Virus record (IMG/VR): IMGVR_UViG_3300025096_000142
Location: 1-22,850 of that record
Reading direction: 5' to 3' (one strand)
Source: a virus
DNA length: 22,850 bases
Shown: one piece after another, positions 2,649 through 6,093 of the stretch
How the letters are laid out: each line of letters opens with the position of its first letter
How positions within the stretch are numbered: position 1 is the stretch's first letter
Notes under the pieces: model-generated
Seen by the model: the letters and a program-made list of their open reading frames with translations, nothing else
What the model was told of the DNA's origin: nothing
Database searches by the model: none
Position numbers and translations under genes: made by a program

Positions 2649-2902
2649 GTAAGATTGATACTCAGGGAATGAGTGCTCCCATGACCCCTGATGAAACAAA
2701 GAAAGCAAGGAATCAAACATATAAACCTGCTGTTGTTACTCCTCGTAGGATTATAGAACCTACCCTTGTTAAGGAGTTAAAGATACTTATTAATGAAGTA
2801 TTGAATGAGAGAAATGGTTTTAGAGGTAAATCATATTTTGATACAGAAAACTTTAAGCATTATGTGGGAGAAGAAGAACCATCTTATGAGGATTGGAAAT
2901 GA
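2645..2902 (+). CDS. Hypothetical protein, 85 aa
   Basis: ATGA overlap with the previous gene (TGA at 2646-2648). The N-terminus is disordered and Pro/Thr-rich (MSAPMTPDETKKARNQTY), followed by a helical stretch (LVKELKILINEVLNERNGF) and an acidic end. I do not recognise it. Its stop overlaps the purN ATG, so it is probably translated with purN. Confidence 0.7.
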   Translation: MSKIDTQGMSAPMTPDETKKARNQTYKPAVVTPRRIIEPTLVKELKILINEVLNERNGFRGKSYFDTENFKHYVGEEEPSYEDWK

Positions 2903-3441
2903 GACTTGGAGTTATGTGTTCAGGTAATGGGACAAACTTCGAAAATATAGTGCGCAGTTGTAGATATGATGAAGTTGTATTAATGTTATACAACAAGAAA
3001 GAATGTGGAGCAAGAAGGAGAGCAGCAAAATTAGGTATACAACATTGTTATGTAAATCATAAACATGAAAAGGAGATGTCTCAGTTGTTTGAATCTTGGA
3101 GAGTAGATCTCATAGTGCTTGCAGGATATATGAGAGTGATTAAAAATCCTGCTGCTTTCCCTGCTCCTATCATCAATGTGCATCCATCATTACTACCTAA
3201 GTATAAAGGATTAAGTGCAGTTGAACAGGCAATGGATGCAGGTGAGGAGGTCACTGGATGTTCAGTTCATTATGTTAATGAAGAATTAGATGGAGGTGAA
3301 GTAATAATGCAAAGAGAAGTTCCTATTTTATCTAAAGATACAGTAGAATCATTAACAAAAGCTATACAAAGAATGGAGTATGCTATCTTACCGGCGGCAA
3401 TAGAAAATGTTAAGCAACAACTATTACAACAAGTTAGTTGA
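2899..3441 (+). CDS. purN: Phosphoribosylglycinamide formyltransferase (GAR transformylase)
   Basis: This enzyme transfers a formyl group from 10-formyl-tetrahydrofolate to glycinamide ribonucleotide, the third step of purine synthesis. The nucleotide-binding N-terminus (GVMCSGNGTNFENI) is at residues 4-17. The catalytic motif INVHPSLLPKYKG is at about 92-104, giving Asn93, His95 and Ser97, and the catalytic Asp131 lies in EELDGGEV. Length (180 aa) is close to bacterial PurN. I chose ATG 2899, which overlaps the preceding stop (ATGA) and has GAGG 7 nt upstream, over an in-frame TTG at 2893. It is a known cyanophage auxiliary metabolic gene, here next to nrdC and thyX as part of nucleotide supply. 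Confidence 0.95.
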   Translation: MRLGVMCSGNGTNFENIVRSCRYDEVVLMLYNKKECGARRRAAKLGIQHCYVNHKHEKEMSQLFESWRVDLIVLAGYMRVIKNPAAFPAPIINVHPSLLPKYKGLSAVEQAMDAGEEVTGCSVHYVNEELDGGEVIMQREVPILSKDTVESLTKAIQRMEYAILPAAIENVKQQLLQQVS

Positions 3442-3565
3442 TATCTGCTGTAGAGTGGTGTCAACTGATGGAGAAGTGAGTCTTGATGAAAGGATATGGA
3501 TGACCAAGTTAAAAGAGAATAACAGACATGCAGAAAATGTAGTTAAGGGATTTGGTATCACGTGA
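3407..3565 (+). CDS. Small hypothetical protein, 52 aa, overlapping purN
   Basis: A short ORF begins at the ATG inside the last 35 nt of purN, in another frame, and ends inside the palindrome at 3555-3568. The peptide has a coherent core: KLVDICCRVVSTDGEVSLDE (residues 9-28), then RIWMTKLKENNRHAENV. The TDGEVSxxER pattern resembles small cyanophage proteins and loosely the acidic loop of TerB-like helical proteins. It has no good ribosome binding site and may depend on coupling to purN. Function unknown. Confidence 0.6.
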   Translation: MLSNNYYNKLVDICCRVVSTDGEVSLDERIWMTKLKENNRHAENVVKGFGIT

Positions 3566-3595
3566 TACAATTCTACTTGACTATATAATTATGGT
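3555..3595 (+). promoter_or_regulatory. NtcA-type nitrogen-responsive promoter
   Basis: GTATCACGTGATAC (3555-3568) is a perfect 14-bp palindrome and an exact GTA-N8-TAC site. It is followed after 21 nt by TATGGT (3590-3595), a TAN3T -10 box; the canonical NtcA-activated layout is GTAN8TAC-N20-24-TAN3T. A transcript would start near 3602, about 10 nt before the first riboswitch-like element. A second possible -10, TATAAT at 3584-3589, also exists, with TTGACT at 3577-3582 as an alternative -35 for later boxes. Confidence 0.7.
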
Positions 3596-3612
3596 ATGGT
3601 AACATACTATTA

Positions 3613-3650
3613 CGTTCAACCCAGAAGGGTCGCAAGTAAGTCACGGAACG
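3613..3650 (+). promoter_or_regulatory. Glutamine-II/Downstream-peptide riboswitch-like element, copy 1
   Basis: CGTTC (3613-3617) pairs with GAACG (3646-3650). Inside, ACCC-AGAA-GGGT (3619-3630) forms a hairpin, followed by CGCAAGTAAG. This matches my memory of the glutamine-sensing glnA/Downstream-peptide RNA consensus: a CGUUCA strand, an internal hairpin, CGCAAGU and a closing GAACG. These RNAs are known from marine picocyanobacteria and their phages, upstream of short ORFs. Confidence 0.75.
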
Positions 3651-3653
3651 GAG

Positions 3654-3694
3654 CGTTCATCCTCCTTTGGAGGACGCAAATGACTAAAGGAACG
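3654..3694 (+). promoter_or_regulatory. Glutamine-II/Downstream-peptide riboswitch-like element, copy 2
   Basis: A second element follows copy 1 after 3 nt. CGTTC (3654-3658) pairs with GAACG (3690-3694), the internal hairpin is TCCTCC-TTT-GGAGGA (3660-3674), then CGCAAATGAC. CTCCT at 3662-3666 is complementary to the AGGAG binding site (3717-3721) of the next gene. A switch between the internal hairpin and binding-site pairing is therefore possible (inference). Confidence 0.75.
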
Positions 3695-3728
3695 GGGCTA
3701 AAAATCCAACTACTTTAGGAGTAACAAG

Positions 3729-3857
3729 ATGGCACAAGTCACTTACCGTGGTGTCAAGTATGACACTGATACACAAAAAGCAACTGAAGCACGTAAGGTC
3801 CAAGAAACCTATCGTGGTATCAAGTTCCTTAAGGAAAAGGAACTAGTAACTGCTTAA
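3729..3857 (+). CDS. DUF4278-type small protein, 42 aa, riboswitch-controlled
   Basis: The peptide has two YRG motifs in similar contexts, VTYRGVKYD (residues 4-12) and ETYRGIKF (27-34), the hallmark of the DUF4278 family found in cyanobacteria and their phages. A strong binding site, AGGAG (3717-3721), lies 7 nt before the ATG. It is the only gene between the NtcA-type promoter/tandem riboswitch-like leader and the terminator at 3863-3888, so it is a single-gene nitrogen-responsive unit and probably the 'downstream peptide' of the riboswitch class. By analogy with cyanobacterial glutamine-riboswitch targets such as the glutamine synthetase inhibitor IF17, a role in tuning host nitrogen metabolism is possible, but sequence alone does not show it. 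Confidence 0.8.
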   Translation: MAQVTYRGVKYDTDTQKATEARKVQETYRGIKFLKEKELVTA

Positions 3858-3862
3858 GAATC

Positions 3863-3888
3863 AAGGGGGTTTACATACCCCCTTTTTT
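3863..3888 (+). terminator. Rho-independent terminator after the DUF4278 gene
   Basis: AAGGGGGT (3863-3870), loop TTACAT, ACCCCCTT (3877-3884), inside a run of six T (3883-3888). It ends the riboswitch-controlled unit. Its loop region contains the -35 box of the next promoter. Confidence 0.85.
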
Positions 3889-3898
3889 AATATATAAT
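3870..3898 (+). promoter_or_regulatory. Sigma70-type promoter nested in the terminator loop
   Basis: TTTACA (3870-3875), 17 nt, TATAAT (3893-3898). The -35 lies in the terminator loop. Transcription would begin near 3905, directly before the AAAGGA binding site of the gene at 3918. Confidence 0.65.
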
Positions 3899-3917: not shown

Positions 3918-4136
3918 ATGGCCCTTCACATGAGAGATACCCTATTAAAAGCAGTCTTAGCCCATGCTAATGGAGAAATTCAAAAGCATAAAGCAAACGT
4001 GGAAGTATATCTTGAACACCCTGCTGGTATTGGAGAGCATTCTGATATCACAGAAGCAATTCAAATAGAATTGAATAAGATAGCAGTCTATCATGATCAA
4101 GTAGAAGTCATTAACAAATACTTTATTCATGGATAA
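3918..4136 (+). CDS. Conserved-type cyanophage hypothetical protein, 72 aa
   Basis: The sequence (MALHMRDTLLKAVLAHANGE at the start, then a GIGEHSDITEAI motif) matches a small helical protein I recall from many T4-like cyanophages; function unknown. AAAGGA at 3906-3911 lies 6 nt before the ATG. It is the first gene after the nested promoter at 3870-3898. Its last 8 nt overlap the next ORF (ATGGATAA). Confidence 0.8.
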   Translation: MALHMRDTLLKAVLAHANGEIQKHKANVEVYLEHPAGIGEHSDITEAIQIELNKIAVYHDQVEVINKYFIHG

Positions 4137-4298: not shown

Positions 4299-4574
4299 AT
4301 GAAGGACAAGAAGGCAGCAAAGAAGCTTCTTAAATTAGCAAAGGAACATCCAGATTGGTATAGTAAAAAAGATATTTTCTATGCTAAGATGATAAGAAAA
4401 CGTATTAAAGATAACAAGAAACATCATGAGCGTGAAGTTGTTAACAGTAACACCAAAGGCAGAAGAGCTGATGGGTTACGTGGCAAGGGTGAGCAACCCA
4501 AAGAACCAAGACAATCCAAAGGTAGCTGGTTTACTAGGTTACTGCATCAAGCACGGTCATTGGTCGGTCTTTGA
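4299..4574 (+). CDS. Small basic protein, up to 91 aa, long overlap with thyX
   Basis: The N-terminal ~45 residues (KDKKAAKKLLKLAKEHPDWY, then SKKDIFYAKMIRKRIKDNKKH) look like a genuine small basic helical protein of a kind seen in cyanophages. From about residue 46 the ORF runs in another frame through 149 nt of thyX, and there the sequence is low-complexity and basic (KGRRADGLRGKGEQPKEPRQ), as expected of an alternative reading of a conserved gene. The native gene may once have stopped near the thyX start. Function unknown; no clear ribosome binding site. Confidence 0.55.
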   Translation: MKDKKAAKKLLKLAKEHPDWYSKKDIFYAKMIRKRIKDNKKHHEREVVNSNTKGRRADGLRGKGEQPKEPRQSKGSWFTRLLHQARSLVGL

Positions 4575-5061
4575 GCAAGCACATATGACTCTGGAGATTA
4601 ATACTACCAGGGGATTAGCAGCACAGATACTAAGGCATAGGTCATTTACATATCAAGAGTTTTCTCAAAGGTATGCTGATAGTAGTATGCTTGGTGATCA
4701 TATTCCTATACCAGAATTGAGAAGGCAGGATGATAAGAATAGACAGAACTCTATTGATGACTTAGATAGATTTGTAGTGCAAGATTTTGAACGTGAAATG
4801 CAGAAACATTTTGAAGAAGGAATGAATTTATATAAGAAGATGTTGGATGCTGGAGTAGCAAAGGAGTGTGCTCGTTTTGTTCTCCCCTTAGCAACCCCCA
4901 CAAGACTCTACATGACTGGTTCAGTAAGGTCTTGGATACATTATATCAATTTGCGTTCCGCTCATGGCACACAGAAGGAACACATGGATATAGCAGAGGA
5001 ATGTAGAAGCATATTCTCTGAGCAGTTTCCAAGTGTCTCTCAAGCCCTTGAATGGGTCTAA
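4426..5061 (+). CDS. thyX: Flavin-dependent thymidylate synthase ThyX
   Basis: ThyX makes dTMP from dUMP with FAD, NADPH and methylene-tetrahydrofolate, for phage DNA synthesis. The signature is RHRSFTYQEFSQRY at residues 70-83, matching the RHR-x7/8-R flavin/dUMP motif. Other family blocks are CIKHGHWSVFEQAHMTLEI (about 40-58), ARFVLPLATPTRLYMTGSVR (about 149-168) and LRSAHGTQKEH. Length (211 aa) is normal. The start overlaps the preceding ORF by 149 nt. The binding site is weak; the ATG is supported by the normal N-terminus (VKLLTVTPKAEELM). It acts with PurN and glutaredoxin in nucleotide supply. Confidence 0.95.
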   Translation: MSVKLLTVTPKAEELMGYVARVSNPKNQDNPKVAGLLGYCIKHGHWSVFEQAHMTLEINTTRGLAAQILRHRSFTYQEFSQRYADSSMLGDHIPIPELRRQDDKNRQNSIDDLDRFVVQDFEREMQKHFEEGMNLYKKMLDAGVAKECARFVLPLATPTRLYMTGSVRSWIHYINLRSAHGTQKEHMDIAEECRSIFSEQFPSVSQALEWV

Positions 5062-5337: not shown

Positions 5338-6093
5338 ATGACAAGAAAGAAAAAGAATGGGGATCAACCTATTGGGGTTGGTTTAACCGCTAAGCAAATG
5401 AAAAGAAAGAAACCAATTAATACTGATATGTTAAGGGACGTAGAAGCCCTTACTGATAATCAGAAAGCTTTGTTTGCATCATATGGTAAGGATAAAAACA
5501 TAGTTGCTTATGGTGCAGCAGGGACAGGTAAAACATTCATCACTCTCTATAAAGCATTGGGTGATGTTTTAAATACTTCTACTCCATATGATAAGATCTA
5601 TATTGTAAGGTCATTAGTTGCTACTAGGGAGATTGGTTTCTTACCAGGAGACCATGAGGATAAGTCTTACCTATACCAGATACCATACAAGAATATGGTT
5701 AAGTATATGTTTGAGATGCCTAGTGAGGCAGACTTTGAGATGTTGTATGGTAACTTGAAAGCACAGGAGACTATTGGATTCTGGAGCACATCATTTATCA
5801 GGGGTACAACATTAGACAGGGCAATTGTTATAGTTGATGAATTTCAAAACTTGAATTTTCATGAATTAGATAGTATAATAACGAGGATAGGAACCGACTC
5901 CAAGATTATGTTCTGTGGAGACGCTACTCAGACTGACTTGATTAAACAGAATGAAAGGAATGGTATTCATGACTTCATGAATGTCCTAAGAGTTATGCCA
6001 TCAGTAGATATTATTGAATTTGGTATAGAAGATATAGTAAGGTCAGGTTTGTGTAAAGAATATCTATTAGCTAAAACGGAATTGAATTTATGA
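5338..6093 (+). CDS. phoH: PhoH-like P-loop ATPase
   Basis: An ATPase of the PhoH family, one of the commonest genes in marine cyanophages. Walker A GAAGTGKT is at residues 59-66. A family block VRSLVATREIGFLPGDHEDK follows at about 90-109. Walker B AIVIVDEFQN is at about 162-171, and FCGDATQTD (sensor-like) follows. Length is 251 aa; the first ~35 residues are basic. The biochemical role in phage is not settled; roles in phosphate stress or RNA metabolism have been proposed for the family. It overlaps the next gene by 4 nt (ATGA), so both are in one operon. Confidence 0.93.
   Translation: MTRKKKNGDQPIGVGLTAKQMKRKKPINTDMLRDVEALTDNQKALFASYGKDKNIVAYGAAGTGKTFITLYKALGDVLNTSTPYDKIYIVRSLVATREIGFLPGDHEDKSYLYQIPYKNMVKYMFEMPSEADFEMLYGNLKAQETIGFWSTSFIRGTTLDRAIVIVDEFQNLNFHELDSIITRIGTDSKIMFCGDATQTDLIKQNERNGIHDFMNVLRVMPSVDIIEFGIEDIVRSGLCKEYLLAKTELNL

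Follow-up and report, generated by a model that had tools for sequence, protein, structure and literature searches.

A 22,850-bp stretch of viral DNA (the window), which constitutes one complete IMG/VR virus record and has the gene content of a T4-like cyanophage fragment, probably contains a cyanophage nitrogen-response cassette, in which an NtcA-type box and a promoter precede a two-core composite glutamine riboswitch and a DUF4278 gene (Table 1). The association of an NtcA-type DNA box and a glutamine-riboswitch RNA with a single DUF4278 gene is strongly supported by sequence conservation and, as read from covariation and predicted folding, the two cores stand back to back on one common P3 helix, so that the riboswitch is a single composite RNA.

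A preliminary description of this DNA had considered the combination of an NtcA site, a glutamine riboswitch and a DUF4278 gene to be new and the RNA class to be rare in phages. The combination is not new on its own, as an NtcA motif, a glutamine riboswitch and DUF4278 occur together at PMM1846 of the host Prochlorococcus (PMC6316151). Likewise, rarity in phages is contradicted by 311 GenBank phage records with DNA similar to the leader region, all from cyanophages or marine viruses, and by a report of glutamine riboswitches in T4-like cyanophages (PMC9964418). In the literature searched, where an earlier mention may exist, neither the composite fold nor the open reading frames (ORFs) nested in its P2 loops (see below) were found described.

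Table 1. Elements of the cassette, numbered by position in the window
Feature	Position	Strand	Basis
Upstream NtcA-type box, GTATCACGTGATAC (GTA-N8-TAC); centred near -50 relative to the inferred transcript start	3555-3568	+	
-35 hexamer TTGACT, 8 bp past the box	3577-3582	+	Logo of 190 relatives, consensus scan
Dyad around the -10 hexamer, also GTA-N8-TAC, GTATGGTAACATAC	3594-3607	+	
-10 hexamer TAACAT, 17 bp past the -35 hexamer	3600-3605	+	Logo, consensus scan
Predicted composite two-core glutamine riboswitch aptamer	3613-3695	+	RF01739, covariation, minimum-energy fold
Core 1 P1 5' strand (A1), CGUUC; partner 3690-3694	3613-3617	+	
Core 1 P2 hairpin, short loop; ORF here in other phages	3619-3630	+	
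C of core 1 long-range pair; partner G3695	3633	+	Covariation
Shared P3 helix, 5' strand AGUCA	3639-3643	+	
Core 2 P1 strand B1, GAACG; partner 3654-3658	3646-3650	+	
G of core 2 long-range pair; partner C3677	3651	+	Covariation
Core 2 P1 strand A2, CGUUC	3654-3658	+	
Core 2 P2' hairpin, short loop; most often an ORF instead in relatives	3660-3674	+	
Shared P3 helix, 3' strand UGACU	3681-3685	+	
Core 1 P1 3' strand (B2), GAACG	3690-3694	+	
Shine-Dalgarno sequence AGGAG	3717-3721	+	Sequence
42-aa DUF4278 protein, two YRG repeats, phrog_5049	3729-3857	+	Pfam
Intrinsic-terminator-like hairpin (3863-3884) and T run	3863-3890	+	

Relatives of the cassette

The search of other cyanophages for the same layout, proposed in the preliminary description, was productive: three pattern scans of IMG/VR yielded at least 219 distinct loci arranged as in the window. 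Counts out of 219 or 217 refer throughout to the matches listed, and locus totals are lower bounds. The composite is present in seven cultured phages, and S-PM2 and S-CREM1 have the form with two short P2 loops that is seen in the window. A further viral scan with the pattern TTGACTATATAN{14,22}CGTTCA, in which the spacer was off, gave no useful matches.

The loci were retrieved by CGUUCA/GGAACG patterns, and P1 itself is therefore not testable by covariation. The search expression also restricted the third base of CGS to C or G. P3a, the 5' strand of P3, was mostly fixed in two of the three scans, while its partner P3b was fixed in none, and the base following GAACG was absent from every search pattern.

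Architecture of the glutamine riboswitch

Two CGUUCA...GGAACG units (3613-3650 and 3654-3694) lie in the leader. The preliminary description had recognized both but had read them as consecutive elements, while the covariation described below points to one interlocked two-site RNA. Unit 1 consists of CGUUCA-P2-CGCAAGUA and lacks GAAG ahead of GGAACG; unit 2 has CGCAAA in place of CGCAAGUA and contains (G/A)AAGGAACG. The first CGUUC and the last GAACG, together with P2 and P3, make up core 1, a three-way junction of the glutamine-I type that has its P1-P2-P3 junction and both joining strands, CGSAAGUA and GAAGG (AAAGG in the window). The first GAACG and the second CGUUC, together with P2', make up core 2, the same junction in circularly permuted form, situated within the loop of P3.

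A default Rfam scan of the whole window gave no match, so that default annotation would miss the riboswitch. Scored over 3611-3698 as one element, the glutamine-I model RF01739 reached 36.9 bits, above its gathering cut-off of 35, and the top match spanned the two units as a single aptamer whose P3 contained a 40-nt insert, which was the first hint against a tandem. The two units alone gave 28.4 and 21.3 bits. The glutamine-II model RF01704 scored 28.9 bits in a focused scan, under its gathering cut-off of 33. The minimum-energy fold of the window sequence was exactly the composite (-22.5 kcal/mol, as compared to -16.7 kcal/mol for the tandem fold), and the composite had the lower energy in 49 of 49 short-loop loci folded.

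Covariation of the shared helix and of the long-range pairs

P3a, which follows CGSAAGUA in unit 1, is complementary to P3b, which precedes (G/A)AAGGAACG in unit 2. The strands read AGUCA/UGACU in the window and AGUCG/CGACU, GGACGG/CCGCCC or AGCCGACN/NGCCGACU elsewhere. None of 5000 permutations matched the in-register pairing observed in the first 94 loci, although permutation values are not strict probabilities and the counts not independent events, since the loci are related. When register was ignored, the best complementary run between the joining segments (mean 3.97 vs 3.72) did not differ significantly. Strand lengths were equal in 212 of the 219 loci listed (8/8, 5/5 or 6/6), and the far P3 pair was G-C in 118 of them, U-A in 75, A-U in 24, and U-G and U.U in one each. 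The 8-bp form of P3 retains two mismatches, C.A at pair 3 (93/99 distinct loci) and A.C at pair 6 (81/99), which suggests a tertiary role for them.

In the crystal structure of glutamine-II, the third base of CGC and the base that follows GAACG form a long-range pair that adjoins the ligand; an equivalent pair is present in glutamine-I, and the pocket in the crystal structures consists of this pair and the CGUUC/GAACG helix (PMC6698751). In core 1, the corresponding pair, whose partner base directly follows the last GAACG, was Watson-Crick in 219 of the 219 loci (C-G in 189, G-C in 30). In core 2, where the partner base follows the first GAACG, the pair was Watson-Crick in 217/219, two loci having changed on both sides. 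If the pairs were instead assigned as in a tandem, only 188/219 were Watson-Crick for each unit. The cores are thus cross-paired between the units, both on one P3.

Glutamine doublets are usually read in the literature as two ordinary aptamers in tandem, independently folded and pseudo-cooperative, and 157 such doublets have been counted (PMC9481103). This reading accommodates the presence of CGUUCA and GGAACG in each unit and the matches of each unit to RF01739 alone. Moreover, genuine tandems of glutamine-I aptamers do occur in viruses, as at L069 and L095. There, each unit has its own P3 hairpin, whereas the phage-type units lack one and have a P3 common to both. As the inter-unit P3 covaries in sequence and in length, and in view of the long-range-pair counts and the folding energies given above, we reject independent tandem aptamers for the phage-type loci and regard them as very improbable.

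A second alternative is that glutamine is bound by core 1 alone and that core 2 is a structural cap or a hairpin that carries or controls nested ORFs. Indeed, neither the AAGUA strand nor the GAAG joining strand of glutamine-I is present in core 2, and an ORF takes the place of its P2' loop in most relatives. On the other hand, the long-range pair of core 2 is maintained with compensatory changes, the CG preceding that pair and both P1 strands are retained, and glutamine-II binds its ligand in the same pocket although the surrounding architecture differs (PMC6698751). We consider a purely non-binding core 2 unlikely, while its shorter joining strand, CGCAAA as compared to CGCAAGUA, means that it might be a weak binder or structural only.

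ORFs nested in the P2 loops

While the window has none, 167 of the 219 relatives listed contain small ORFs inside their P2 loops. P2 and P2' loops measure either 11-47 nt or 138-234 nt, and the 219 loci listed fall into short-long (111), short-short (52, the type of the window), long-long (39) and long-short (17) combinations. Every long loop has an ORF, of 59-75 aa in core 1 and of at least 49 aa in core 2. Nearly all of these ORFs have an ATG that begins 3-6 nt inside the P2 arm, and 141 of 150 core 2 ORFs end at a stop codon 10 or 13 nt inside the aptamer core. The stem persists in ORF-bearing core 2 elements, in which P2' pairs 4 and 5 were paired in 135 and 124 of 136, as compared to 88 and 77 in shuffles.

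The third codon position takes most of the substitutions in the nested ORFs, and in seven of seven length classes synonymous single changes outnumbered nonsynonymous ones. The conserved products, 49-75 aa long and with two cysteines (L007, L016, L021, L029, L037, L463, L464 and about 160 more loci), match phrog_504, phrog_6471 and phrog_13397, all three of unknown function. One of them was found in 312 phage records and is called 'hypothetical protein' among the matches listed. The modelled product of a core 2 ORF has two helices with two invariant cysteines near its ends (pLDDT 78). In Syn10 (L463), the pair of nested ORFs and the DUF4278 gene are CPUG_00199/198/197; in P-HM2 (L464), they are PHM2_179/180/181. 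A text search of the literature revealed no report of an ORF inside an aptamer; here, too, an earlier mention may exist.

The DUF4278 gene and its putative terminator

The remaining gene-level elements of the preliminary description were borne out: a strong ribosome-binding site ahead of ATG 3729, a 42-aa DUF4278 peptide and a terminator-like hairpin. The peptide matched DUF4278 (PF14105) with 26.2 bits at a Pfam cut-off of 25.3, and a DUF4278-like YRG-repeat protein is encoded by the first ORF after the composite in 206 of 207 readable loci. DUF4278 is the N-terminal part of IF17 (PMC6316151). A glutamine synthetase inactivating factor of this kind (IF17/gifB) is further defined by a C-terminal IF domain. 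The 42-aa protein consists of this part only; it matched no other Pfam family, no relative was found in the PDB by sequence, and its predicted structure has low confidence (pLDDT 60). From this resemblance to the N-terminus of IF17, an inhibitor of glutamine synthetase, we propose that the protein may act on that enzyme or on its regulation. The terminator is overlapped by a strong promoter match at 3870-3898 (TTTACA-17-TATAAT, 11/12), which stands ahead of the next small gene, at 3918.

Promoter and NtcA-type boxes

The perfect palindrome noted in the preliminary description is present, and TATGGT, a TAN3T sequence (3590-3595), follows 21 nt later. GTA-N8-TAC occurred within 110 nt upstream in 153 of the 217 distinct loci listed, as compared to 13.3 expected from dinucleotide shuffles (30 runs, maximum 22 loci). 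Enrichment was restricted to the N8 spacer, other spacers between N4 and N13 being found in 2-13 loci each. The upstream box stands mostly 57-62 nt ahead of the first CGUUC, lies at -63 to -52 in 131 loci, with the consensus TGTATCA....TACA, and is separated by 8 bp from a TTGACN-like hexamer in 93 loci; 64 of the 217 loci lack a perfect upstream box. The palindrome could have arisen by chance or could belong to a different regulator, given that cyanophages could encode regulators of their own. This is improbable in view of the enrichment at N8 only, of flanks that extend the box to TGTA-N8-TACA, and of its match to the published marine NtcA model, GTA-N8-TAC (PMC3037559). In that study, NtcA sites were predicted in 16 of 16 cyanomyoviruses (PMC3037559).

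The promoter logo of the relatives reads TTGACTAAATA, 17 bp, TAnnAT, and the transcript would start near 3612, approximately where the aptamer begins. The TAN3T sequence would correspond to the -10 element of a class II NtcA promoter, in which TAN3T lies about 22 bp after a box at -41.5 and a -35 hexamer is absent. While the sequence itself is there, it was rejected as the -10 element, as the conserved -10 hexamer in the logo is that at 3600-3605, 31 bp after the box. The class II geometry is not the conserved one either, as a TTGAC -35 hexamer is present and the conserved box stands upstream of it, near -50. TATAAT at 3584-3589, 16 nt after GTGATA, was scored by the consensus scan and rejected as well, its position not being conserved.

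A second GTA-N8-TAC, missed in the preliminary description, overlaps the -10 hexamer (3594-3607). Inverted repeats around the -10 hexamer with arms of at least 6 nt were found in 129/217 loci, as compared to 52/651 shuffles, and the arms vary together between phages (GGTCTA/TAGACC, TGTGTTA/TAACACA, GGTATG/CATACC). We know of no regulator that would account for an operator that is variable in sequence yet still symmetric.

NtcA activation from the box near -50, upstream of the -35 hexamer, is plausible. NtcA might nevertheless act with the opposite sign, as a further box of the window stands at the position where hosts have a site that would repress. If NtcA repressed here, as it does at the host gif genes, with the -10 dyad as its operator, both signals would turn the gene on at nitrogen plenty. 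We regard this as a possibility to be kept in mind, though not as the probable reading: NtcA is a repressor of gifA and gifB (PMC6316151), and the second box of the window stands at the same place as the host site, but a GTA-N8-TAC lies within the -10 dyad of only 20 phage loci, a minority, and the upstream box of 131 loci keeps a mostly constant spacing to the -35 hexamer, a place that would be typical of an activator.

Comparison with host loci and known riboswitches

Matches to RF01704 were present in 42 of 61 host-family genomes searched. Among 28 host loci parsed, 27 had GTA-N8-TAC, mostly as GTAGCAAnnGCTAC, 18-20 nt ahead of the aptamer and over the start site, and a short YRG-repeat protein followed in all 28. 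Many host DUF4278 promoters (L411-L440) also share a motif TTGTATC-N4/5-TGAACTACA, about 60 nt ahead of the aptamer and upstream of the start-site NtcA-type box. Of 400 host-family genomes, two carried the composite pattern (G391:C3:117861-117889 and G001:C36; L461 and L462), a count obtained with a corrected pattern, as the pattern AAGTARGNCRNCGGAACGG could match only the 6/6 type of P3. Both are probably phage contigs within the assemblies.

The host DUF4278 loci with glutamine-II (Downstream-peptide, RF01704) thus resemble the phage cassette in having an NtcA-type box, a riboswitch leader, a YRG protein and CGCA. They differ in that the host RNA is a single pseudoknot aptamer while the phage RNA is composite, and in that the host box lies over the start site while the main phage box lies near -50. 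Glutamine-I (RF01739) shares with core 1 the P1 strands CGUUC/GAACG, the P2 hairpin, CGSAAGUA, P3, GAAGGAACG and the long-range pair. The P3 of the composite, by contrast, is closed by a second, permuted core instead of a simple loop, which amounts to a 40-nt insert in the window and to up to about 200 nt more where P2' has a nested ORF. Tandem glutamine doublets likewise have two CGUUCA...GGAACG units per leader.

The glycine and guanidine-II riboswitches offer an analogy, as they, too, have two structurally coupled sites for the same ligand (PMC9481103, PMC6698751). Their coupling takes the form of a tertiary or loop-loop contact, while that of the composite is one common helix, and there is no sequence relation. 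In S-CREM1, the same short-short element has been annotated as one 99-nt glnA riboswitch; the accessible part of that paper does not describe the composite fold (PMC9964418).

Proposed mechanism and implications

In the mechanism that we propose, transcription would be driven by a promoter of the sigma-70 type, with an NtcA-type box some 50 bp ahead of the start, and the resulting mRNA would begin at the riboswitch. NtcA would act from the upstream box, probably as an activator. Each core would bind glutamine, the common P3 would couple the cores and give a sharper response than a single core, and glutamine binding would lead to more DUF4278 translation. The last step is proposed by analogy with the host, in which both the glutamine-I and the glutamine-II riboswitches of IF17/DUF4278 genes act as ON switches (PMC6316151). 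We take the ON direction from the host because folding with and without P1 left the predicted exposure of the Shine-Dalgarno sequence unchanged and gave no clear expression platform.

A two-output switch is a tentative extension of this mechanism, in which high glutamine would open DUF4278 through the cooperative two-site RNA, while the P2-loop proteins would be made at low glutamine. As the nested ORFs start in the P2 stem and that of core 2 has its stop codon at the P3 strand, folding of the RNA would shut them, and translating ribosomes would unfold the switch, the window representing a stripped form without nested ORFs.

If the composite fold is correct, the glutamine doublets of a major marine phage group are two-site RNAs with a common helix, not tandems, and provide a simple test case of real cooperativity in a natural RNA. 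The nested ORFs would then represent protein-coding genes that run through the interior of a metabolite aptamer. If both regulatory inputs operate, the nitrogen state of the host, conveyed by 2-oxoglutarate via NtcA and by glutamine via the RNA, would be linked to phage expression, a link accessible in the cultured pairs P-HM2/Prochlorococcus MED4 and S-PM2/Synechococcus WH7803.

Neighbouring genes in the window encode a phosphoribosylglycinamide formyltransferase (2893-3441), a ThyX-type thymidylate synthase (4426-5061) and PhoH (5338-6093); in other phages, the cassette is located near td, talC or nrdB.
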